NCBI GenBank assembly: GCA_946699065.1
Contig: CAMPDV010000871.1
Coordinates: 62,001-126,000 of the forward strand
Length of the DNA: 64,000 nt
Direction of reading: 5' to 3'
Source of the DNA: Loxodes magnus
Lineage: Eukaryota > Ciliophora > Karyorelictea > Loxodida > Loxodidae
In this document: in pieces, positions 1,710 through 64,000 of the stretch
Layout: the number at the start of each line of letters is the position of its first letter
How positions within the stretch are numbered: position 1 is the first letter of the stretch
Notes under the pieces: generated by a model
Databases searched by the model: none
The model's input: the letters and a program-made list of their open reading frames with translations, nothing else
Told to the model about the DNA's origin: nothing
Position numbers and translations under genes: made by a program

Positions 1710-2480
1710 ATTTTTGATTATATATAAATAACTTTAAATCATTTAAAACTCTCACTCCTAAATTAGATTCAATGTACATTTTTAGAGTTTTAATATTAAT
1801 TTTTACAATATGCTAAATATGTTTGTTGTATCTTTCAAGCTATTTAAATAATTTCCTCTTAAAAAATTATAAAATTAATCTTAATTAAATATTTTAAACT
1901 AATTAATCTGGAATTACTTATCAACTAGTAATTTTATTTTAATTAGTTTAAAATTTATTGGATATATTAAATAACTAATTATTAAATCATTTTAGGTATA
2001 TAACTTTTAATTATATTTTTTCTAAAATTATTTAGAAGTATGAAATTGTATTATATCCCTTTCATTTTTTCTCTACTGTTAAACCTAAAACCCATCACTT
2101 TATACTCTATATAATACATTAATTTTGAAGCTATATCAAAATTTTATTTTTTTCTATAATATGCTGTTCTGAATATTATAAACTTATAGATCTATTTTAT
2201 TAATCCTCTTTAATGATATAATTTTTCTTATATTTTATTTTTTACTAACTAAGATTAAAGCAAAATATTTAATAATTTTTTACTCTTTAATATCTTTTAA
2301 ATGAGAAAAAATCTATGAAAATGATATTATAAATAGCATTTAGCATAGCTTATTTTCTTTAACTCATCAATTTAAATATTTTTTAGACTTAGTTTGCTTA
2401 TCCATAAATTTTCTCGTTTAATCTGATTAAGCAAATATAAAAAAATAAAAGGATAAAATTAAGTTTATAGTCTTAGAAAA
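1710..2480. other. AT-rich stretch, no gene seen
   Basis: Non-coding AT-rich DNA between a Rab-like pseudogene and a gag-like ORF. No RNA gene or repeat recognised. Confidence 0.45.
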
Positions 2481-2538
2481 AAGTTCCAGGGTTCACTTGT
2501 TTTTGTTTCTGCTCTTTCCTGAACTAAAGGACTGCGTA

Positions 2539-2553
2539 GGACTACATTAGTCC
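2539..2553 (-). promoter_or_regulatory. Stem-loop downstream of gag-like ORF 1
   Basis: On the minus strand this reads GGACT-AATGT-AGTCC, a perfect 5-bp stem with a 5-nt loop, followed by CTACGC. It lies past the first TGA of the gag-like ORF. Comparable stem-loops with loop RATGW follow other gag-like copies (14364-14383, 8096-8110, 29596-29613) and end the A and C repeats. The stem pairs differ while pairing is mostly kept, which suggests an RNA structure rather than a shared primary sequence. A role as a recognition site for reverse transcription is inference. Confidence 0.45.
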
Positions 2554-2674
2554 GCCATCCTTGTCTCTCCCTCATCCACTAATTATCGTTATAGTTTCTT
2601 CTTCCATTTTTATAAACCTCGTTGTTTCTTGAGTTGTAGAATTTCTTTCTGTATACTTATCCTGTTCTTGTTGG

Positions 2675-3298
2675 TCATATTCTGAAAAGTTAGTCTAATA
2701 TTTATTACTTGTTAATTTTCTCAATTTCTTGTTTCTTCCAGCATTTTTTCCAGCAATGATTTTTCTAGCATAAATAGCACCGAATCTTTTTGCGATAATA
2801 ATTGATCTTATTTATTTCTTATTATTAGAATTCCGATTCGATTTCCATTGGGATATTTGATTATTAATCTTATTAATCTTATAATTTTTAAATTATTACT
2901 TGTTATTATTCTTGTTTTTCTTAAAGTTGCTTTATTTGATATTCAATTTAAGAAAAATGAAATTGGAACATTTGAGGGACTTCGTTAAATTATTTATCAA
3001 TTTATTCCAATTTAATTACTATTTACGATTAGATTTTATCTAATGATTCATCTATGGATGGGAATTTTAGGTTTAATTATTCCATTAATTTTTCTAGTAA
3101 GTTTTCTAAATTTTCTATTTTTTATCTTTGCTTTTTCAAGTCATATTGGATATTTGATATCCTTTGCTGAACTGATTATGCAAAGGATTACTTAGATTAT
3201 TAATCTTTATCTTATTAAGGCTATTCTTCAATTAAATTAGGTTATTCTTATTTTTTCAAGTATTCGTTAATAGAGGTCTATTATTTCTTAGGTGCCAT
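2675..3298 (-). CDS. Gag-like (ORF1-type) zinc-knuckle protein, copy 1
   Basis: An uninterrupted 207-codon frame in the ciliate code, from ATG (MAPKKQQTS) to TGA. The N-terminal and middle parts are Gln/Lys/Glu/Leu-rich with heptad-like spacing (about residues 45-150, probable coiled coil). A PMEIE motif follows, then a CCHC knuckle of the form C-x2-C-x3-H-x4-C (RCYLCQKNHCWKKC). This order of coiled coil, short acidic motif and zinc knuckle is typical of nucleic-acid-binding Gag/ORF1 proteins of retroelements. In the same frame beyond the TGA the sequence continues with PT-x2-GQVYRKKF, which matches a C-terminal motif (RIY-x-T-x2-G-x-IYRRK) in the other copies. There TGA occupies the Tyr position of RIY, so the original protein was probably longer. 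The ATG is the first in frame, close behind a short AT-rich leader. Confidence 0.7.
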
Positions 3299-3309
3299 TT
3301 TATATAATA

Positions 3310-6300
3310 AAATAAATTTAAACCATGACTCCAGCATTTTATATTTAAGCTTTTTTACCATTAAATTTTTAAAAGTAGACTACTTCTACGTTCCAAAAGT
3401 TAAATATATATAAAAACCTTTTTTATTTATTATATCTAAAGATTTAGATAAACTATATAAAATTATTAAACTACCCTATTAAAATTGAACTTAGAGTGGT
3501 TTAATCTATAGTTACTATTTACTAACAAATATAATTTTATTAAAGATAAAAAAATAAGCTTTTCTAGTTACATATCAGAGAAATAAAATAGATAATAAAA
3601 AAATGTTGAGATTTAAAAATACTTTAACTAGAGTAATAGAAGACTTTAATTAAAATTTAAATATATAAATTTTAGAAAATTATAATTTTATATTATATAT
3701 ATAATATTGTTGTATTATTGTAAGATTAATATATACATTTTTAAGAATTTATCAATATTTAAATAAAACGTAGAAAATATAAAAGTTAAATGTTCTCTAT
3801 GTCTAGTAAAAATATTAAAATTTTCCAGCTTTAATAAATAAAATATATAGTTAAGTTTGGAAAATATTATTTCCAATTTAACTTTTCGAATGTGATTAGA
3901 AAGTATCCTTATTCGAATAATACAGATGGATATATTTTAGAAAAAAATAAAACATAAAGAAATGAAAATTATACTTAGCATATATTAATATTTAAAAATA
4001 TGCTATTACATAGTTAAATATAAACCTTTAAAAAACTAAATTATTAAGACAAATTTTATAAGCTCTTGCTTAAAAAAATCTAAATTAATTAAAAAAAAGC
4101 TTTCTATAAATTTTTTTAAAGTTTGCATAATTACTAAAAAAGCAAATTTAAGTTTTAGATTAAAAAAATCTAGAAAGACGCTGCGAAATCATAAAAATAT
4201 TAAAAGAAAAAATAAAACTTTATAAAATAAATAAAATAGTATAACAATAAAGCAATAAAAATAAATAAATCAAAGCTTAAGCGGGGATCTAGAATAGAAT
4301 ATATATTATCAATCAATAAAGCAGAAGTTTAAGATTCTAGAGTATATATTCTTATTAAGATAAAAACAGTAGATTTAAATACCTTAGGTAAAGAAAGAGT
4401 TTACAAGAAAAATTTGAATATAATATGATATATTAGAGTAAATATATAAAAATTGAGAGATAAAGATTATATGATATATTTTAGAAAGATAATATAACGA
4501 AAAAAAAAAAAGTTAAAATAACTGGTAAAAGAATTTTCGAAATTTTGCATTTCTATTTTCAGCATTCGATTTCAATAATTTAGTATTCAAGATTTATTTC
4601 TTCAAACATCATAATTGTACAATAAGGATTCTATTCCAAGTTTTATTAGAATAAAAAAAAGTTTTCTTTTAGTAGCTGAAAAATTGTGTGCTTTATTCAA
4701 ATATTCAAATAAATACATTTAAAAATTAAGCTAAATGAAATTCACACAATTTCCAATATTTATACTATTAAAGCAAAATTGATTAATATTATGTTATTTA
4801 ACTCTTACTAAATTCAACACAAAAACAAGTAAAAATGATGAATCCTTTACTAACTTCAAGATGTATTATTTAATTGATAAGTTTATAGAATAATTACTTA
4901 AGTCTGCAACTATAATTTTACAGTAAAGCAACAGTTTCTTTAGATTTTAAGCATATATAATAGTTATGTAAGTATATTTAATATAAATTATGTAATAAAA
5001 GTTTTAACTTAGAATTATATAAAATTAATAAAATATAAAATAACTAAAAAAATTAAAAAATCACTAAAGATTAATATCATAACACAATTAGAAAAATCTT
5101 TAAGATATTTATTAATTTATTGTTTTCAAAAGTGTAGCAAAGAGTTAGATGCTGTCAAAAATAAAAAAAATGAAAGTTCATATTCGCAAAGGCTTTATAT
5201 AGAAAGAATGAATTTTATTTGAAAAATGTTATACGAGTAAATGCTATAATTCATCGACAAATTAGCAAAAAAATATCAAAATAAATTGAGATTATTTTAG
5301 TGAAAAGCGTACTAACTAAGAAATTAGGAAATATTATTTTTAATTATTTATTATTTATGGGTTTAATTATAAAAAAAGAATTTGGAAAAATATGAAAAAC
5401 TCTATTGATCTATAATTATAATTCTGAAGCTAATATATTAAACTAAGAGCATTTTTATATTAAATTTTCAAATATTTATTTTTTTTAGCTTTTATATTTT
5501 TAAGGAATTAAGAGTTATCTTCAATATCCAGAAAATTAAAAAAGACACTGTTAAAATTATTATATCATTAGAATAAATTATAAAATAATAATACTTTATC
5601 ATATACATCCAGTTCATATAACTTATTAGCAGCTAAATACAAAATTAGTAATTGCATAAAAAAAATCAATCATGTTATTAAAAGCTACTAATAAATTTTA
5701 AAGCAGGTAATAAAGATTTTACTTATTTAGACAGCTAATTATTTATCTATTATTAAATATAAATCTTTGCTTGATTTAGACACAAAAATAAATCCTAAAT
5801 AACTTAACAAAAAGTAATTAATTTAATATTTAAATAATTGTGTTGCTTGGTATTTGCATTTTTTATTTCTTCTAATATATATTAATTGTTTTATCAAAAT
5901 TATTGTCATTATATTTAAATAATCATCGTATTTACGTTTAGTAGTAATTAAAGTTAGCATACCTCATAGATAAAAGTTAGCTACAATATAAACTTTAAAT
6001 TAATATGCTGTGATAACTAACCAAATAAAGAGAAAAGGCAAGAAATCCACCACTATATAGAATGATTAGTCAGAATTGGTTGAAAAAAAGGGAAAATAAT
6101 GTAGATTAAATATAGTTTGATAACAATTCGATAATATTTTAATTTTTATTGCATAGTCTTCTTATTTTATGATACCATTTGAGCAATCATTACTTACTAG
6201 CTAAATTTATTTTAGTACCAATGTTAAAATATTGAAAGTAAATAACAATTCCAGCTATCTATAATACTATTTTATCTCAGAAAAAAAATTAAAAATTGAA

Positions 6301-6655
6301 ATTTGAAACTAAAATTATAGAAATATTTAATTTTAATATTTAACAAGTAATCTATCTTACATAAAAGAGATAAATAAGTTTAAAAAAGTTTTAAAAGTAA
6401 ATAAAAAAGTAAAGTATGGTTTTTTATTTAAATTATACAAATATTTATTAAATTCAAGTTCTTAAGTTATTTATTACTAAGTGGATATTCATATAATAAT
6501 CTTCAAAAGCAAAATGAATATATCATAGTTAAACTTATACATTTATAGAGATTTATCCATAAAAAAATGAAATATATAATCATAAACACTATCTTGCTAA
6601 TAAAAAATTGCTATTAAATGTTTTTTTAATTCTTATTTAAAGTATTTACGACTTA
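3310..6655. other. AT-rich stretch, no gene seen
   Basis: About 3.3 kb of very AT-rich DNA between a gag-like ORF and the tRNA pair. I could not support any coding region, RNA gene or repeat family in it. Confidence 0.4.
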
Positions 6656-33841: not shown

Positions 33842-36262
33842 TAAGAATAATAATATGCAGTTTGAAAATTACAATTAGAAACTATTCAAAATTTGAATGA
33901 ATAATACAGCACTAAGTAGAGCAAAGCAAATATTTACAAAAAAAAAACCGAATCATGATAAAAGTTAAGCAGCTATAAGTTGAAAATAATGACTTACCTA
34001 TTTAGAGGAGTTATAAAATTGAAATATTTAGGTTAAGAGAAAGTTCATAGAACAGGAAGAATAAATAGAAAGACTATAGTAATAAATTCAATAAAATGAA
34101 ATTGAACTAAGAAATTTTTAGCTATAACTAAGAATTACATATGTATACAATCAGGTTATATAATAATAAAAAAAGAAGCTTAAAGAGAAGAAAGAAGTTA
34201 AAATTAAAAGATTAATAGTTTAGTAATTCATTGTAGGAATATAATTAGGAACTATTTAACAAACAAATAGATAAAGTAAATTATTTGAATACATCTTTTA
34301 AAGATAAAATTAATAGATGTAGCAAATGATTTAATTACTTGAAGAAGAAAGATTAAAAGCAGAGAGCCATATTGAAGATTAAAAGAATTAGATATAATAA
34401 ATAAAAGATAAAATAAAAACATTTAATCTTCATCTAGAAAATTAAACCAACTTGAAACTGCCAAAAGATAATTAAAAATGCTAAAAGCAAACTTAGATAC
34501 AGCAGCAAGAATAGAATCAAATATTATTAAAAGAACTTAATAATAAAATAGAATATGAGATTTAAAACCTAAAATTAAAAGAAGAAATCCTTATTTAAAA
34601 CTAACTCAAGGAAAAATAAGAACTATAGAATTAAATTTAATAACTTACATAATAAAACTAACTACTATAAAATAGTTAAGAAAAAAATAATGCTTTATGG
34701 GGATAAAGCTGTTTGTAAATCGAAGATAAACTAAAACTTATTTAAGAACTATAAAATAACACTTAAGAAACATAGAATCCTAACTTAAATTATAAAAGTT
34801 TAGTAGAATTGTTAAAATAAGAATTGAAACTTGTATTAAACAAATTTTAAAAATTGAAGGTGAAAATAAAGTAGGGATATGATAATTAACTAAAGATTAG
34901 GAAAGTAGAGCAGAAAATATTTTAAGCTAAATAAAACATTAAGAAGAAAATTAAAATCAAAAGAGCTATGAAAGGTAAAGAAAGTATAGATAAAGAAATT
35001 ATAAATTTATAGAATTGAAGCAAGGAAAACATTTTAAAATAGAAACTTTATAAAACTTATAAAAATATCTTTAGAGAGAATCAGACTAAAGCAACAATTT
35101 GCAAAAAATTATGAATAAGAGATATAATAACTTAAAAATAAAATAAACTTATTTAGTAGCTAATAGAAAGAGATTAAGGTTATTTAAAAATAAAAAGGAA
35201 AAAAGATTTTATAACTAAGTGATTAGATTCAGCAAAATGATTAGAACCTGAGAATATTAAAAGAGGTTATCTCTAAATTAGAATAATTTAAAATTTAAAG
35301 TAAAAGCAAAGAAAATCTTGTTTTTAGTAGATCAAAGAAGGAAATGATTTTGATAACTAGATTCAAATCCTTGAATAATATAATAAACCCCTTCAAAATA
35401 TTGATTTAAGAAATAGTGACTTAGAGCAGTAAAATCTAAAATAAAAAAATAAACTTAAGATCTTAAAAATTTAAACTAAAGAAATCTATAATATGATCTT
35501 AAAGTTACACATTACGAATAAAAATAAAAAATTGGAATAAGAATTGCATTTTTTAAATGAGCATATTTTATAACTGAAAACTTAAAGCAAAAAATTATAA
35601 AAAATAACTTAAGAGAAAGAGAGCGAAAAACAATCTCTTATTGTATAAATAAAAAGTTAGGAAGAAGGAATCAAGATTTTAAAACTCTAATTATAAAATA
35701 AAACTACACAAGAAAATTAAATAGAAGAGTTATAGAATTAAAGTGTTGATAATATAAAGTAAATACAAACTTTATAAAACTAAATAAAAGAATTACAATC
35801 TAACTAGAAGAAAAATTGAAGATAACCAGAGAACAAGAAAATTAAATTTTATAAAGTTCCTATAGCTTCAATTATTCTTATATATAAATTTAAGCATTAA
35901 ACGAAGCAAAAGAAGAATACAAGTAATATTTTTAATTACTAAATAAGAACTAGGAAAGCAATTTAAAATAGCTGAAAGATAAAATAAATCCAAAAGTTAA
36001 TTATTTAGAAAAAGAAATATTTGATAATAAAGATAAACTATAATTATAGTAAAAAGAAATTGAATCATCTAGACAAGAAATTAATACATTAATATCAGAA
36101 ATTGAAAGCAGAAAGGAAGAAATTCATAATTTGATTTAACAATCTGATTAATTAAAAAGTGATTTAAGTAAGAAACTATGGAGAAATACATTAGTTCTGA
36201 TAGATAAAGATAACAGAAAAGTGTTCTTAAATTTTTATTTTATACAAGTCAGAGCATTATGA
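33842..36262 (+). pseudogene. Long coiled-coil protein gene, left arm copy
   Basis: Ciliate-code frames give long stretches rich in Gln, Lys, Glu, Leu and Asn with heptad character. Examples are EEERLKAESHIEDQKNQIQQ, LEQELHFLNEHILQLKTQS and KEIESSRQEINTLISEIESR. Many Gln are TAA/TAG. At least three small frameshifts (near 34980, 35240, 35830) and a few TGA codons interrupt it; the longest clean segment is about 35340-35820. No globular domain was recognised, so it may be a structural or SMC/myosin-like coiled-coil protein, or simply an element-borne ORF. It lies on the inner side of family A copy 2 and its partner is 47454-49880 on the minus strand. The last 90 codons differ between the two copies. 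Confidence 0.6.
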
Positions 36263-47453: not shown

Positions 47454-49880
47454 TCATTTTGTTAGTTAATATAAATTATGTTCTTAAGGATATATAAATT
47501 ACTTTTTAATTTTTTCAGATTTCTAGCTTTGATTTTTGTCTTATTCATTTTTGCTTTAAATCTCAAATGACATTTTTTTAATTTCTTTTCTAAATGTTTC
47601 TGCTTTTTTTTATATGATTTTAGTTTATACTTATATTTCATTTTATCTGATTGATTTTTAGAGTAAATTTAGCTTGAAACAATTTTTAATTACTTTCCTA
47701 TTTCTAACTTAGTTATCAAAATTGTTATTTTTATTCTTCTTTTGCTTCGTTTAAGGTTTAAATTTTATTAAAAAGAATTCAAATTCTGGCAACCCTATAA
47801 AGATTAATTTTCTTTTTCTCTATCTATATTCAATTTTTTTTCATTTATCCCTTTAATATTTTTTAGTTTTATAAAATTTATATTTGCTTTATATTTTCAA
47901 CACTTTAATTCTACAACTCTTCTATTTCTTTTTCTTATGTAGTTTTACTTTGTAATTAGAGTTCTATAGTCTTTATTCATTCTTTCTAATTTGTACAGAA
48001 GATGTTTTTCGCTCTTTTTTTCTTAAGTTATTTTTTATTTTTTTCAATGCTTTAAGTTTTCAGTTATAAAATATGATCATTTCTAAAGCTAAATTCTTAT
48101 ACAGTTTTATTTTTATTTGTAATATTATACTTTGATGTTCACTTTACTGGAGTTTGTTTTAAATTTCTTTAGTTTAGGCTTTAAAAGCTTAATTTTAAAG
48201 TCTTAATTTTATGTTTCTAAATTTTATATTTTTATCTTTATTTTTAATTTTACTGTTCTAAGTCACTATTCTTAATTCAACATTTTGGAGGAGTTTTTTT
48301 TATTACTCAAGCATTTGAATCTAGTTTTAAAAATCATTTCTTTTTTTGATCTACAAGGAAACAAGATTTTCTTTACTTTTACTTTAAATTTTAAATTTTT
48401 ATTCTAATTTAGAGATAACCTCTTTTAATATTCTCAGGTTCTAATCATTTTTTTGTATCAACTAACTTAGTTATAAAACCTATTTTTCTTTTTATTGAAA
48501 ATAATCTTAAATTCTTCCTTTTAGCTATTAAACAAGCTAAATTTATCTTTAAGTTACTATATCTCTTATTCATATTCTTTTACTTTTTGTTTTTAATCTG
48601 ATTCACTCTATAGATTTTTTATTTAGTTTTATAAAGTTTCTATTTTAAATTATTTTTCTTTTTTTAGTTCCATAAATTTATTATTTCTTTTTCCATACTT
48701 TATTTACCTTTTAGTTAACTCCTTTGATTTAAAGTTCTTCTTATTAATATTTTATTTAATTTAAAATATTTTCTACTCTACTTTCATAATCTTTATTTAA
48801 TTATCATATCCCTACTTTATTTTCACCTTCAGTTTTTAAAATTTGTTTAATACAAATTCCAATTTCTTATTTTAGTAATTATATTTATTTTTTAAAGTTT
48901 AAGTTAGGATTCTATGTTTCTTAAGTGTTATTTTATAGTTCTTAAATAAGTTTTAGTTTATCTTCGATTTACAAACAGCTTTATCCCCATAAAGCATTAT
49001 TTTTTTCTTAACTATTTTATAGTAGTTAGTTTTATTATGTAAGTTATTAAATTTAATTCTATAGTTCTTATTTTTCCTTGAGTTAGTTTTAAATAAGGAT
49101 TTCTTCTTTTAATTTTAGGTTTTAAATCTCATATTCTATTTTATTATTAAGTTCTTTTAATAATATTTGATTCTATTCTTGCTGCTGTATCTAAGTTTGC
49201 TTTTAGCATTTTTAATTATCTTTTGGCAGTTTCAAGTTGGTTTAATTTTCTAGATGAAGATTAAATGTTTTTATTTTATCTTTTATTTATTATATCTAAT
49301 TCTTTTAATCTTCAATATGGCTCTCTGCTTTTAATCTTTCTTCTTCAAGTAATTAAATCATTTGCTACATCTATTAATTTTATCTTTAAGAGATGTATTC
49401 AAATAATTTACTTTATCTATTTGTTTGTTAAATAGTTCCTAATTATATTCCTACAATGAATTACTAAACTATTAATCTTTTAATTTTAACTTCTTTCTTC
49501 TCTTTAAGCTTCTTTTTTATTTTTATAAAGCTTAATTATATACATAAATTTATTCTTCGTTATAGCTGAGCATTTCTGAATTTTGACTTTACCCCACTGA
49601 ATTTATTACTACATACTTTCTTTATATACTTTTTGTTCGTTAGATCTTTCTCTTAACCTCGATATTTAATTTCATGCCTTCTCTAATTAGATAAATAAGT
49701 CATTATTATAATTTTGTAGCTGCTTAACTTTCTATAATGATTGGCTTTTTTCTTCTTGCAAATATATATTTTGCTCTACTAACTGCTGTATTTATTTATT
49801 CAAATTTTTAATAGTTTCTAATTGTAATTTTCAAACTGCATATTATTCCTCTTACAGTCTAAATTTCATCTTCCTTTAAT
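47454..49880 (-). pseudogene. Long coiled-coil protein gene, right arm copy
   Basis: The minus-strand homologue of 33842-36262; for example the segment at 48950-49010 is the near-exact reverse complement of 34680-34745. The N-terminal part is better preserved here (KLQLETIKNLNKQIQQLVEQ, YLQEEKSQSLQKVKQLQ). Both copies carry the same TGA after EEQYAV or EQQYAV, so this stop predates the duplication. The C-terminus differs from the left copy (FRKEIKKMSFEIQSKNEQDK then TGA at 47454). Coiled coil throughout, no globular domain recognised. Confidence 0.6.
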
Positions 49881-58999: not shown

Positions 59000-61900
59000 A
59001 TGAACTAAGTTTGTCCTATTTGCTAAAATCAGTATAGCAATATTTATGTTCCTCTTAAGTTGGAGTGCGATCATGTATTTTGCTCTATTTGTATAGCTAT
59101 ACTTAAGAATTCAGGTTAAGGAGCTTATTCTTGTTAAGTTTGTAGAACAAAAATTAGGAAAGAAATTGGTTAATTACAACCTTAGCTATAACTAATCTTA
59201 GGTGAAAATGCTTACTGTTCTATTCACAACAAATCCTATGATCTTTTTTGTACTTCTCATTAATAAAAAATTTGTAGCAATTGCTTATTATAAAATCACA
59301 GAAACTGTAATGATATTCTAACTATTGAAGAGTTTAATAACTTATAAAACTAATATAAAGAATAAAAGGTATAGGAGTTATGATAAAATCACTATATCTT
59401 AAATAAGTAACTATATATTTTGGAAAATAATAAAAATTAAATCAAAAAGGAGATTGAAAATGCTAGAACTATCTTTTAAGAAGCTTAGTAGTTTTTAATA
59501 AATACCATATCTAGTAAATTTAAGCAGATATTGCAAATATAAGAAGATAAATACTTAAAAGCTAATAACTAAATTGCTGCTTATAAGAAATAAATATTAG
59601 GAATTATTTCTGAAATGGAATAACTTAGTAATATTAATAATATTTAAATAGAACAAATTGATTAAAAAGTATAAAATATTTAAAACTAAATATAAAACTG
59701 CTGCAATATAGAAAGTAGCATTTCTTAATTACACTTATAGTAGGTATAAAAATAATAAATATTATAAGATATAATGGAAAGTCTTATTTAAAATGAACTT
59801 ATATTTGATATAAACTTATTTTAGAATAAATTATAAGCAAGTTAAAATGAGAATTAGGTAATTGGCTAATAGAATAATAATTTAGAAAACTTATAAGAAT
59901 CAAAGAAAATAAAAATACAATCATATACTAATTTTTCAATTAAAGCAGATATATCAGATTCTATCTTAGAAATTAAAAAGAAAATATGAGATAAAAAAGG
60001 AATATTGGCTGAAAACTAAATATTAGTTTTAGATGGTAAATAATAAGATGATTAAACTATGATATAAGAATTTAATAATATAGAAGAACTAACACTTAAT
60101 TTAGAAGTTTAATATAAAGTAATACAAGTATTCATATAAAGTTATAACACTAAATTGTTACTAAATGCTTAATACTCTGATACTATTAGTAAAGTAAAGG
60201 AATTAATATAAGATTTAAATGGCATTTCACATGAATTTTAAAATTTAACTTACCAAGGAAAATAGTTAGAAGATAACAAAACTTTATCTCACTACAATAT
60301 CTAATAACTATCTACAATTCATTTGTAGGTAACCTTTTTAACTACTAACATTAAAATAAAATGATTTTTAGAGGTAGAAAGATGAATGGAAGTAGAAGTA
60401 AATTTATTTAATACTATATAAGAGATAAAAGAGATCATAAAAGAAAGATTAGGTATCTAAACTAAATTCTAAATATTAATAATAAAAGGATAGTAACTAG
60501 AAGATTAACAGACTTTATATTATTACAAGCTTAATGAGTATAAGATAGATGATATAATTCTAGAACTTTAGTTTACTGATAATATGCAAATCATCATATC
60601 AGATAATAAAAATTAATAAATAGTTCTAAAGGTAAATCAAACAAACAGTTCATAGGATATTATAAGATATATAAAAAATGAGTGATAAATAAATAATGAA
60701 ATAAGTTTAGATTTTTAGATGTAATAAATATAGTAAATAAATAATCAATAAAATGAAGAAGAATAAGATGATATATATTTCAGTTTGAGTGTAATAGAAA
60801 CGTAAATAGAAGTGTATTAAAAATATACCTCACCATATTTAATAAAAATTGGGATATCTGATAAAATAGAGAGAGTGAAAAGATTAATATATTAGATGAA
60901 AGGAGATGAAATAAGTGAATAAAGGTTATTTATATAAGAGATGTAGTTGGAGAATGAAAAGACACTATAAGATTATGAAATAAGAAATGATTAAAGAATA
61001 GAGTTGAAGATAAAAGAAGAAAAATTAGAATTTTAAATAAAGTAATTAAGTGGAAAGTAAATGAGTTTGTGAGTAGATAAGGATTAGGAGATAACAAGTA
61101 TAAAAGAAGAAATAGAAAGAATTTAAAAAGTAGAAAGAGATAAGATAAAATTGATTTTATAATACAAGAAGGACCTGAAAGACGAGTATAAGTTAAGCGA
61201 TTATGGAATAAAAAGAGATAAAATTATATATTTTTTAAATGATTTAAAAGGCGGAATGTAAATATTCGTAAAAACTTTAACAGGTAAAACTATTACACTT
61301 GATGTTGAACCTTCTAACACTATAGAAAGAATAAAAGAAAAAATGTAAGATAAAGAAGGAATTCCTCCATGATAATAAAGACTTATTTTTGCAGGTTAAT
61401 AATTAGAAGATGGTCATACTTTATCTGATTATAATATATAAAAGGAATCAACTTTAAATTTAGTATTACTATTATACTTTGGCTATTAAATATTCGTAAG
61501 AACTTTAACAGGTAAAACTATTACACTTGATGTTGAACCTTCTAACACTATAGAAAGAATAAAAGAAAAAATATAAGATAAAGAAGGAATTCCTCCAGAT
61601 TAATAAATACTTATTTATGCAGGTTAATAATTAGAAGATGATCGTACTTCAGAGTATTATAATATAGGACAAGAAACAACTTTAAATTTAGTATTACTAT
61701 TACTATTATACTGTGGCTATTAAATATTTGTAAAAACTTTAACTGGTAAAACAATTACACTTGATGTTGAACCTTCTGATACGATAGAAAATGTAAAAGC
61801 AAAAATATAAGATAAAGAAGGAATTCCTCCAGATTAATAAAGACTTATTTTTGCAGGTTAATAATTAGAAGATGGTCGCACTTTATCTTATTATAATATA

Positions 61901-62850
61901 TAAAAGGATTCTGAAATTAAACTAGATAATGAAATTTAGTTGCTTGTAACTCTTTCATTTAATAAATCTATAAAAGTTAGTATTGGCTAGACAGAAACAG
62001 TTCTTAATTTAAAAGAATAAATTAATCAAAAAGAATAGCTTTAAATTTAACAATAGAGATTATTTTATAATGGAAATGAACTTAAAAATTAAAATACTAT
62101 CTATCATTATAATATACAAAATAACTAAACACTTGATTTAATGCTTTCAATGTATGTTTTAATTAAAACTTTCAATGGAGAAAGCTTTATTTTATAAATC
62201 TCTTTAGAAGATACTATTTATTAAGTTAAAAACAAGATTTATGATTAATAATAATATCCTATAGAATAATAAATTCTACTCTTCCAAGATAAATTACTAG
62301 AAGATTAACTAACTTTATAACATTATAATATAAGCAATAAAGATACTCTACACTTATTTACTTAATAAAGACTTATCTAATTAATGGTTTAAACTTGTTC
62401 TGGTTAAATAATACTATTAAATGTTTAAGCTACAGATACTATTGAATAAATAAAGAATTATATATAAAAGAAATTAAAGGTAAATTAAGATGAATAAAGA
62501 TTAGTTTAGGATGGAATCATTTTAAATAATAGTAAAACTGTATAAGAATATTAAAATATAGAGAGGGAAATTATTTTCTTAGAAGAAATAGGTTAAAATG
62601 GAATGATAGTAACAATAATAAATTAAAATGGATAAAGTTTTAATATAGAAATAAAACCTTATAATGCAATAAAATAGCTGAAGAAGAAGATTAGTAAATA
62701 AGAAGGATTTAGAGTAGAAGACTAAATTCTTTTACGGAAAGAAGTGTAATTGGAAGACGAAAAGTTTATAAGTGATTACTATATTGAAAGCTATGAGCTA
62801 ATTGATTTGTAGTTAAAAAGCTTAGAGATATAGTAATAAATTTAAAATTT
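59000..62850 (+). CDS. RING/B-box/coiled-coil protein fused to about thirteen ubiquitin-like domains, with seven in-frame TGAs
   Basis: One frame runs from ATG 59000 to about 62850 with no frameshift, reading TAA/TAG as Gln. Residues 5-48 form a RING finger (CPIC, then CDHVFCSIC, then CQVC; C3HC4), typical of E3 ubiquitin ligases. Residues 73-103 look like a B-box (C-x2-H-x7-C-x2-H-x4-C-x2-C-x4-H). About 170 residues of Gln-rich coiled coil follow: a TRIM-like order. From about 59906 roughly thirteen ubiquitin-like domains follow; domains 7-9 are close to ubiquitin, the rest diverged but keep the K-x2-I and G-x2-L-x-D/N spacing. Except for KGG before domain 7, the C-terminal LRGG is lost, so the domains could not be cut into monomers. 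TGA occurs at 59381, 59987, 60362, 60383, 60683, 61070 and 61370. No in-frame TGG was seen, and no in-frame TGA follows the last domain up to the window end. Either a dead gene decayed only by stops, or TGA is decoded. Confidence 0.75.
61256..61951 (+). repeat. Three tandem near-canonical ubiquitin repeats
   Basis: Units begin at 61256 ([12 protein letters not shown]), 61487 ([11 protein letters not shown]) and 61721 ([11 protein letters not shown]), 231-234 bp apart. The DNA is nearly identical over the first half of units 1 and 2, so they arose by recent duplication or conversion. The joints are LLLYFGY and LLLLLYCGY in place of LRLRGG. Unit 1 has TGA for Asp39 (IPP-TGA-QQRL). Unit 3 keeps [20 protein letters not shown] and then diverges after NIQKDS. 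Gln31, Gln40 and Gln41 and the Gln at position 48 (Lys48 in canonical ubiquitin, so no K48 linkage site) are TAA. Confidence 0.85.
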
Positions 62851-62854
62851 TTAA

Positions 62855-64000
62855 ATTTAAATAAATAAATAAATATTAATAAAAAATTTAAGCTATCTAA
62901 TTTAATTATTCAAAATTTTTATATATATATCTTTTATTTTTATTGTTACCGTAAATTGTTAGCTTAATTTTGGTTTTAATTAAATATCTAGTAAATAAAA
63001 AAGAATTTATAACATATTTTTAATATTAAACAAAATGCTTATTTAAAGCAATTAATTTTTAAAAATTAAAAGCTTATATCTTTTAATATTAGATAAGCAT
63101 TAAATCTAAGAGAAGCAATATAAAGTAAGATATTATTCAATATTTCTCATTTAAAAATAATTACATAGATTTAGAGAATTGGCCTTAGTTTAAAAATTAA
63201 TAAAAAAGAAAATAAGCACAAAAAAATAATTGATAAATAATGTAACTTTATTTAAAGTATGCTTATTTATTATAAAAGTCTAAAATAAAAATAACTAAAG
63301 TTTATTTATTGAAATTTAAAAAGTAAAGGAAATTATTAACGTAGCCAGTGGAAAACATTACAATATTGTAATTATAGATTATAGGGATTTTGTATTTAAT
63401 ATAAGCTTTAAACAAATAGACTAATAGGAATTCTTTAATCTTAGAAAGTAACATTTCTTAATTACACTTATAAAATCTCTAAAAATATATAAAAGTTAAA
63501 GTAAAATAATAATTAGAATTAACTTATAATTTGATTTTAAGCAAATTAATATAGAAAAAAAGTAAAAATAAAAAAGATACAGCTTAATAATTTAGAAAAA
63601 TAAAGTAACTTAATAAAAATTATATATAATTGATTCAACTAACTATTAACATATCTAGATTGATTAAATCATGCTTAACTTATTTTCTGGCATCCTTAAG
63701 TCAGGTTTTTTACATTTCATAGACCTTTTATCCAGCAAAATTTTATAAAGCTTTTAAATTTAATGGTCGATTTAAGTTCAATAAGTATAAAAATAAATTT
63801 CTAACACTTCTAAAACTCTTTTTATCCTTATAAACTTATTTTATTCCCTATTTTAGTTTTTAGAGTATTTCATAGAAACATTTTTCATCAATTTGTAATT
63901 ATGCATAAAAGATGCTTAAACATCTAGATATATTTTTCATAACTCAGAAGATATAAAGATCTAAATTCCATTAATATTTTAGATGATTTAAATTTTTCAA
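62855..64000. other. AT-rich downstream flank
   Basis: No gene recognised. The frame of the RING-ubiquitin ORF happens to stay free of TGA to the end of the window, but codon content becomes AT-rich and non-coding-like soon after a cluster TAG TAA TAA at about 62832-62840. Confidence 0.4.

Follow-up and report, generated by a model that had tools for sequence, protein, structure and literature searches.

A predicted TRIM-type E3 ligase with a chain of ubiquitin-like domains in the ciliate Loxodes magnus

We analyzed a 64,000-nucleotide stretch of the Loxodes magnus genome (contig C871, positions 62001 to 126000; hereafter the window) against the whole assembly (705.73 Mb in 7,843 contigs). 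The window contains a long frame that very probably encodes a single protein some 1,275 residues long, in which a TRIM-type RING, a B-box, and a coiled coil are followed by a fixed chain of 13 ubiquitin-like units. The fuller reading, in which this protein is a TRIM-type E3 ligase that carries the chain as a scaffold or as a mimic of a ubiquitin chain, is one that we judge from the sequence to be evenly poised. A first-pass annotation of this DNA had described an E3 ligase with a built-in chain. That description stands as a gene model, on the grounds of a fusion that recurs, two paralogs that end in TGA, and eroded joints between the units. Its author overlooked seven in-frame TGA codons, a family of copies, and the lack of a stop codon, although the observation of the fusion itself was real.

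The N-terminal part of the predicted protein has the order of a TRIM/RBCC protein: a C3HC4 RING, then a B-box, and then a coiled coil. Pfam called both zinc fingers above their cut-offs: zf-RING_UBOX with 30.4 bits against 25.2 and zf-B_box with 24.6 bits against 24.1. The heptad periodicity of amino acids (aa) 112 to 285 was 0.86, against 0.35 (standard deviation, 0.11) in shuffled sequences, and none of 200 shuffles reached the observed value; in four paralogs, the respective values were reached by 0, 0, 3, and 2 of 200 shuffles. The coiled coil was judged by this periodicity and by an alignment to TRIM72, which phmmer extended across aa 4 to 239. Among proteins of solved structure, those closest in sequence to the first 300 residues include RNF4 (for the RING) and TRIM72. 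These results confirm the RING, B-box, and coiled coil that had been proposed for the N terminus. Furthermore, Met1 was unchanged across five aligned RING loci, and the zinc-ligand positions were invariant in the same loci (all eight in the B-box), bar RING position 25.

The remainder of the protein consists of ubiquitin-like units (Table 1). Pfam called ubiquitin in 12 stretches (589 bits), and a profile that we built here also called 12 units; a 13th, degenerate unit (aa 530 to 598) was inferred from its positional match to paralogs. A structural model of this unit, made from a 13-row alignment, had a predicted local distance difference test score (pLDDT) of 67.3, with about 80 in its first beta-beta-alpha part and less than 60 in the remainder. 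The first-pass annotation had counted about 13 ubiquitin-like domains and had set a Pfam search as a test of them; the 12 ubiquitin stretches account for most of the repeats, the RING and B-box were called in the same search, and the degenerate unit completes the count. The units were 18 to 85% identical to ubiquitin, with 10 of the 13 at only 18 to 49%. An NCBIfam match (230 bits) offered Rad23 as a name for the protein and was rejected, because it covers the ubiquitin-like domain (Ubl) alone.

Table 1. Features of the gene, with positions in the window.
Feature	Position	Strand	Basis
TRIM-ubiquitin-like-chain open frame (code 27)	59000..62830	+	translation; indel pattern in aligned copies; Met1 conservation
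RING finger, C3HC4 (aa 5-48)	59012..59143	+	Pfam; eight ligands intact in 19/19 subfamily copies checked
B-box zinc finger (aa 73-103)	59216..59308	+	Pfam; eight ligands intact in 19/19 subfamily copies checked
Predicted coiled-coil region (aa 112-285)	59333..59854	+	heptad periodicity; TRIM72 match aa 4-239
Ubiquitin-like unit 1 (aa 303-369)	59906..60106	+	profile; reciprocal best match of unit 1 in L041, L042, L045
Ubiquitin-like unit 2 (aa 377-443)	60128..60328	+	profile; paralog match
Ubiquitin-like unit 3 (aa 457-520)	60368..60559	+	profile; paralog match
Degenerate ubiquitin-like unit 4 (aa 530-598)	60587..60793	+	uncalled by profile; matches unit 4 of L041, L045
Ubiquitin-like unit 5	60806..61009	+	profile
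Ubiquitin-like unit 6	61031..61237	+	profile
Sole Gly-Gly joint (LKGG before MQIF, ahead of unit 7)	61250..61255	+	translation, joint comparison
Ubiquitin-like unit 7, 85% identical to ubiquitin over positions 1-72	61262..61465	+	profile
Ubiquitin-like unit 8, 74% identical to ubiquitin	61490..61693	+	profile
Ubiquitin-like unit 9, 85% identical to ubiquitin	61724..61927	+	profile
Ubiquitin-like unit 10	61940..62143	+	profile
Ubiquitin-like unit 11	62156..62359	+	profile
Ubiquitin-like unit 12	62381..62584	+	profile
Ubiquitin-like unit 13 (last)	62609..62812	+	profile
TAG TAA TAA cluster, possible termination region without TGA	62831..62839	+	where coding constraint ends; role unproven

We searched the assembly with the block of units 1 to 3, scoring the best 150 of 449 candidates, and found at least 24 places above a threshold of 120 bits, with the next match at 79 bits. 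Twenty of the 24 form an amplified subfamily on C52 (10 places), C697 (5), C871 (4), and C7059 (1), and four are divergent: L041 (C52), L040 (C285), L042 (C33), and L045 (C188). Some members of the subfamily are almost the same in sequence and could be duplicates created by the assembly. A RING search, in which likewise only the best candidates were scored, gave a match about 860 to 1020 nucleotides (nt) upstream on the same strand at 24/24 places, paired by eye. In L041, L042, and L045, Pfam called ubiquitin in 10, 12, and 9 stretches, respectively, and chain length in the family is about 10 to 15 modules. Units 1 to 4 of the window copy were the reciprocal best matches, in order, of units 1 to 4 in these three paralogs (unit 4 of L042 was placed by hand, as the profile did not call it). 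Between paralogs, the reciprocal matches were complete for L041 and L045, held for units 1 to 3 between L042 and L045, and held for unit 3 only between L041 and L042. After unit 4, the units of the window copy and the paralogs were not alignable one to one throughout, and the length of the ubiquitin-like core differed among copies from two to six units. The predicted fusion of a RING with a ubiquitin-like chain therefore recurs in divergent paralogs. The window frame does hold several long segments delimited by TGA, as might be expected if the RING part and the ubiquitin part were separate genes that share a frame by chance; the identical order and frame of the two parts in L041, L042, and L045 and their pairing at every one of the places found make that account highly improbable.

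Other loci related to the family differ in composition. A related RING at L046 has no ubiquitin-like unit. L039 (C52:121578-128578) has a RING 55% identical to the window RING and units 1 to 3 that are 79% identical; its nonsynonymous divergence (dN) is 0.29 to 0.33 for the RING and coiled coil versus 0.06 for the N-terminal units, so it is apparently a chimera of two paralogs. L040 (C285:196350-203350) is a divergent TRIM with about ten ubiquitin-like units and, because these are spread over different frames, would either contain short introns or be decayed. At L043 (C111:372836-379836), one frame at about 2001 to 6540 on the plus strand runs from a RING through a very extended region resembling a coiled coil into a USP deubiquitinase that carries GNTCW and GGHYW motifs (PF00443, 187 bits); the RING was just below the Pfam cut-offs, and no B-box was called by Pfam.

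The frame depends on the genetic code. From 59000 to 62842 it comprises 1,281 codons with TGA read as Trp, and coding constraint stops at about aa 1275. Because it holds seven in-frame TGA codons (aa 128, 330, 455, 462, 562, 691, and 791), it is not open when TAA and TAG are read as Gln and nothing else is changed; only code 27 (karyorelict; TAA/TAG = Gln, TGA = Trp or stop) leaves it open. The single uninterrupted frame described earlier therefore exists under code 27 and is broken seven times under the reading with TAA and TAG as Gln. In an 18-row alignment (the window copy, 16 further subfamily copies, and L041), TGA stood in the same column in 18/18 rows at aa 330 and 455, 17/18 at aa 462, 17/17 at aa 562, and 14/18 at aa 691, and was less shared at aa 128 (7/18) and aa 791 (1/18). 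The alignment used for this comparison and for the dN/dS, 3'-end, and N/S analyses below excludes L027, L032, L033, and L040. At aa 455, the window copy, L041, and L042 have TGA and L045 has TGG; this, together with the conservation of the TGA columns, argues that the in-frame TGAs of the window copy are Trp codons and not breaks. Moreover, the actin-like gene L053 has TGA at two invariant Trp sites, those of GIVTxW and of xxWxGGSILASL, and again as the terminal stop directly after HRKCF, the normal actin end; two more TGA codons lie at a less conserved place. The genome thus demonstrably uses the karyorelict code (table 27), with TGA as both Trp and stop. Table 6 (TAA/TAG = Gln, TGA = stop), under which the locus would be a broken pseudogene, was ruled out, as TGA is Trp in this genome. 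According to excerpts of the Loxodes genome paper, UAA and UAG encode Gln in L. magnus, and UGA encodes Trp or, near the poly-A tail, serves as the sole stop (PMC11441545).

We then compared the joints between units. Gly-Gly was kept at 1/12 joints of the window copy, in agreement with the earlier claim that nearly all joints had lost it (11/12). The surviving LKGG before unit 7 was present in 12/14 subfamily copies compared; elsewhere, two Gly-Gly joints were kept in L041 (both RGG), one in L042, none in L045, and two in L021. In 45 distinct units more than 60% identical to ubiquitin over positions 3 to 70, drawn from 17 sequences (the window copy, L041, L042, L045, and 13 further copies), positions 72 to 76 were kept in 61/225 cells versus about 80% for positions 3 to 70, and both glycines were kept in 4/45 units. 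Body positions were poorly kept at E16 (0.02), K63 (0.22), and N25 and A28 (0.36). The joints are thus eroded more than the bodies in the most ubiquitin-like units. Since the joint sequences differ among copies (LYFGY, RTRGV, LSKSS, RPRSV, and LYGSC), cleavability was probably lost several times or was simply unneeded.

These comparisons bear on whether the locus could encode a precursor of the polyubiquitin type attached to a RING protein, to be cut by deubiquitinases at the remaining Gly-Gly joints. The chain resembles a polyubiquitin gene in its head-to-tail ubiquitin-fold units, which start 72 to 80 residues apart, and in the variable copy number of its core. It differs in that neither near-identical units nor Gly-Gly at every joint was found: the units are non-identical, and 11/12 joints lack the glycines. 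The persistence of LKGG before unit 7 in most subfamily copies and the pairs of Gly-Gly joints in L041 and L021 would suit a precursor. However, L042 and L045, the paralogs with a nearby TGA stop, keep only one such joint and none, respectively, and unit 6, which precedes the surviving joint of the window copy, is only 28% identical to ubiquitin. Given the glycines already gone from the window copy, we consider a precursor quite improbable.

Coding constraint was assessed between and within groups of copies. The ratio of nonsynonymous to synonymous divergence (dN/dS) versus L041 was 0.20 in the RING/B-box; the successive later regions of the protein gave 0.43, 0.50, 0.52, and 0.47, and the sequence beyond its end gave 1.62. 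When 16 subfamily copies were aligned over 3.8 kb (L022, L033, and L035 left out), the net indel was a multiple of three in 13/16, and L039 shifted only at the extreme 3' end; the frame was lost in L027 and L032. Many indels of other lengths occurred in the 3' flank. All 16 zinc ligands were intact in 19/19 subfamily copies checked, and of the first 103 positions, 29 were variable among 18 subfamily copies (L027 and L039 excluded), none of them a zinc ligand (chance, 0.003 for these 103 positions; another estimate, 2.4e-4, overstates the significance owing to a one-codon deletion in L037/L038). Among recent copies, the ratio of amino-acid-changing to silent changes (N/S) relative to expectation was 0.41 in units 5 and 6, 0.73 in units 7 to 9, and 0.58 in units 10 to 13, and 1 and 2 of 1000 simulations were as low in amino-acid changes for units 5 and 6 and units 10 to 13, respectively. 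The N/S test, which also omits L039 and L041 and retains the identical-looking pairs L021/L022 and L034/L035, is weak because its non-coding control was likewise low (0.65; 34/1000).

Several results weigh against a working TRIM-type ligase with a fixed chain. Outside the window copy, the zinc fingers are near or under the Pfam cut-offs: the RING was over its cut-off in L041 and under it in L042 and L045, and the B-box was under its cut-off in L042 (16.7 bits), L045 (22.1), and L041 (17.7). RING position 25 is Asp, not His, in L045. Ubiquitin-binding domains use a hydrophobic patch that is for the most part altered in the units other than 7 to 9 and is altered in part within those three. The one surviving Gly-Gly joint of the window copy could be cut. 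The central units look relaxed, with dN/dS of 0.71 to 1.82 between subfamily members. Recent changes in the RING, the coiled coil, and units 1 to 4 were not short of amino-acid changes (35/47, 43/57, and 69/98), with N/S versus expectation near neutral (0.92, 0.99, and 0.84, respectively). Finally, 13 usable subfamily rows out of 16 (L028, which was misregistered, was set aside) were free of TGA in every frame for at least 250 nt past the last unit, and in L041 the nearest TGA lies 194 nt past the last unit and in another frame.

Past its last unit (62813 to 63230), the window copy likewise has no TGA stop near its end, and its frame meets none before the window ends; what bounds it on the 3' side, around 62850, is AT-rich sequence and not a TGA stop. 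The exceptions among the usable rows were L021 and L022, with a TGA at 173 nt in another frame, and L039, where a TGA 63 nt on is in frame and may be a proper stop. L042 and L045 have a TGA three and four codons, respectively, past the last unit called by the profile. A short 3' intron leading to a TGA was ruled out at normal untranslated region (UTR) length in those 13/16 rows, because splicing cannot supply a TGA where none lies in any frame within 250 nt; excerpts of the genome paper give a mean 3' UTR of 53 bp (PMC11441545). The same excerpts report that UAA, like UGA, is depleted just ahead of true stops (PMC11441545), which leaves room for UAA or UAG termination near the tail, and it is our speculation that subfamily copies terminate in this way. 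The plain alternative account of the missing stop is that the copies are silent or decaying. On that account, the subfamily, including the window copy, would consist of young non-functional duplicates, and working genes would be limited to single paralogs (L042 and L045, for example). The lack of a nearby TGA in nearly all subfamily copies, the near-neutral N/S of the RING, coiled coil, and units 1 to 4, and the lost frames of L027 and L032 point that way. Nevertheless, the frame is kept to the last unit in 14/16 aligned copies over 3.8 kb, the zinc ligands are intact throughout, and units 5 and 6 and 10 to 13 are short of amino-acid changes, though the non-coding control is low as well; we therefore regard non-functional duplicates as unlikely.

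If the protein is a TRIM-type E3 with a fixed chain, its RING would recruit a ubiquitin-loaded E2 and its coiled coil would make a dimer, so that a dimeric E3 is predicted, and the 13 modules would replace the usual TRIM substrate-binding tail. The mostly uncuttable chain would form a constitutive scaffold that shows ubiquitin-like surfaces to ubiquitin-binding partners, with substrate adaptors, E2s, the proteasome, or deubiquitinases as candidates, and the ligase would carry a permanent imitation of a linear ubiquitin chain. The array should not be conjugated, because it has no C-terminal Gly-Gly. Units 7 to 9 retain Leu8 and Ile44, and two of the three retain Val70, but His68 is replaced and K48 is Gln; a partner could thus perhaps bind these units, but K48 could not serve to extend them. 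A model of units 7 to 9 from one sequence was poor (pLDDT, 46.8). We propose the scaffold or chain-mimic role tentatively, at slightly less than an even chance.

The main rival to a scaffold or chain-mimic role is self-regulation, in which, as with the Ubl of parkin, units would contact the RING or E2 by folding back and the chain would tune autoinhibition or autoubiquitination. In its favor, the first units stand directly after the coiled coil and match those of three paralogs in order, whereas the core varies from two to six units. Yet no result here indicates a contact between a unit and the RING, a single Ubl suffices in parkin, and the number of units seems excessive. Parkin and HOIL-1L/RBCK1 also differ from the window protein in being RBR-type, not TRIM, ligases with a single Ubl. 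They are alike in being E3 ligases with a built-in ubiquitin-like domain, as excerpts of a TRIM classification paper describe them (PMC3503706). We hold self-regulation to be a doubtful explanation.

The predicted protein was compared with other known systems. It shares RING, one B-box, and coiled coil, in the same order, with TRIM/RBCC ligases such as TRIM72 and TRIM21 and differs from them in its C-terminal domain, a chain of ubiquitin-like units; we know of no TRIM class with a C-terminal ubiquitin-like chain. ISG15 and FAT10 also have tandem ubiquitin-like domains that stay joined, but only two, and they are conjugated modifiers and not part of an E3. The excerpted TRIM classification names no TRIM class with a ubiquitin-like chain, and that paper nowhere uses the words ciliate, protist, Tetrahymena, or Paramecium (PMC3503706). 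The words ubiquitin, ligase, and tripartite do not occur in the main text of the Loxodes genome paper (PMC11441545). No TRIM with a ubiquitin-like chain was among the matches listed from open-licence PubMed Central (PMC) papers, which agrees with the earlier statement that no described protein has this architecture. The nearest published match among those listed from this literature was a group of small fusions of ubiquitin and RING domains in two algae, Bigelowiella and Guillardia. These likewise have ubiquitin domains and a zinc RING in one frame; they differ in that the published tables give only 1 or 2 ubiquitin domains and 145 to 273 residues and list no B-box or coiled coil (PMC6332867).

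A broader proposal, which could hold but which we would not bet on, is that this ciliate lineage evolved ligases with their own permanent, uncuttable polyubiquitin-like chain, putting writer and mark in one polypeptide; the recently amplified subfamily, with its variable core and its losses of cleavability through differing changes from copy to copy, would then be a diversifying sensor or scaffold family, and writer-mark and writer-eraser (L043) fusions would coexist. If the protein is made as predicted, the locus would offer a natural test of a fixed, non-removable ubiquitin-like chain on a ligase, otherwise studied with engineered linear chains, and the natural copies with two to six core units would form a ready series. 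The TRIM family would gain an additional C-terminal domain class, from an early-branching ciliate lineage. In addition, the subfamily, nearly all of whose copies lack a nearby TGA stop, would be a concrete case for studying termination where the sole stop doubles as a sense codon.

We also recorded other features of the window and genome. A viral origin was considered and rejected: a search for viral contigs gave 7 pattern matches, with no confirmed relative. A Pfam search of further coding-like segments in the window, covered in five stretches, gave no family over the cut-off. Window positions 34169-34853 and 48834-49518 form an inverted repeat of 685 nt, 96% complementary, that lies mostly inside coding-like segments (34047-35798, plus strand; 48366-49505, minus strand) with no Pfam match over the cut-off. 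Large head-to-tail arrays matching a ubiquitin-like query occur on C537, C1577, C32, C930, C2553, and C6377, with repeats of about 1,055 to 1,061 nt and mostly 211- to 215-codon frames (on C6377, the repeat is about 833 nt and the frame 149 codons); these are apparently tandem polyubiquitin genes. Dozens of near-identical actin genes lie on C266, C437, C524, C707, C711, and C1162, and C266 has ten that are full length.

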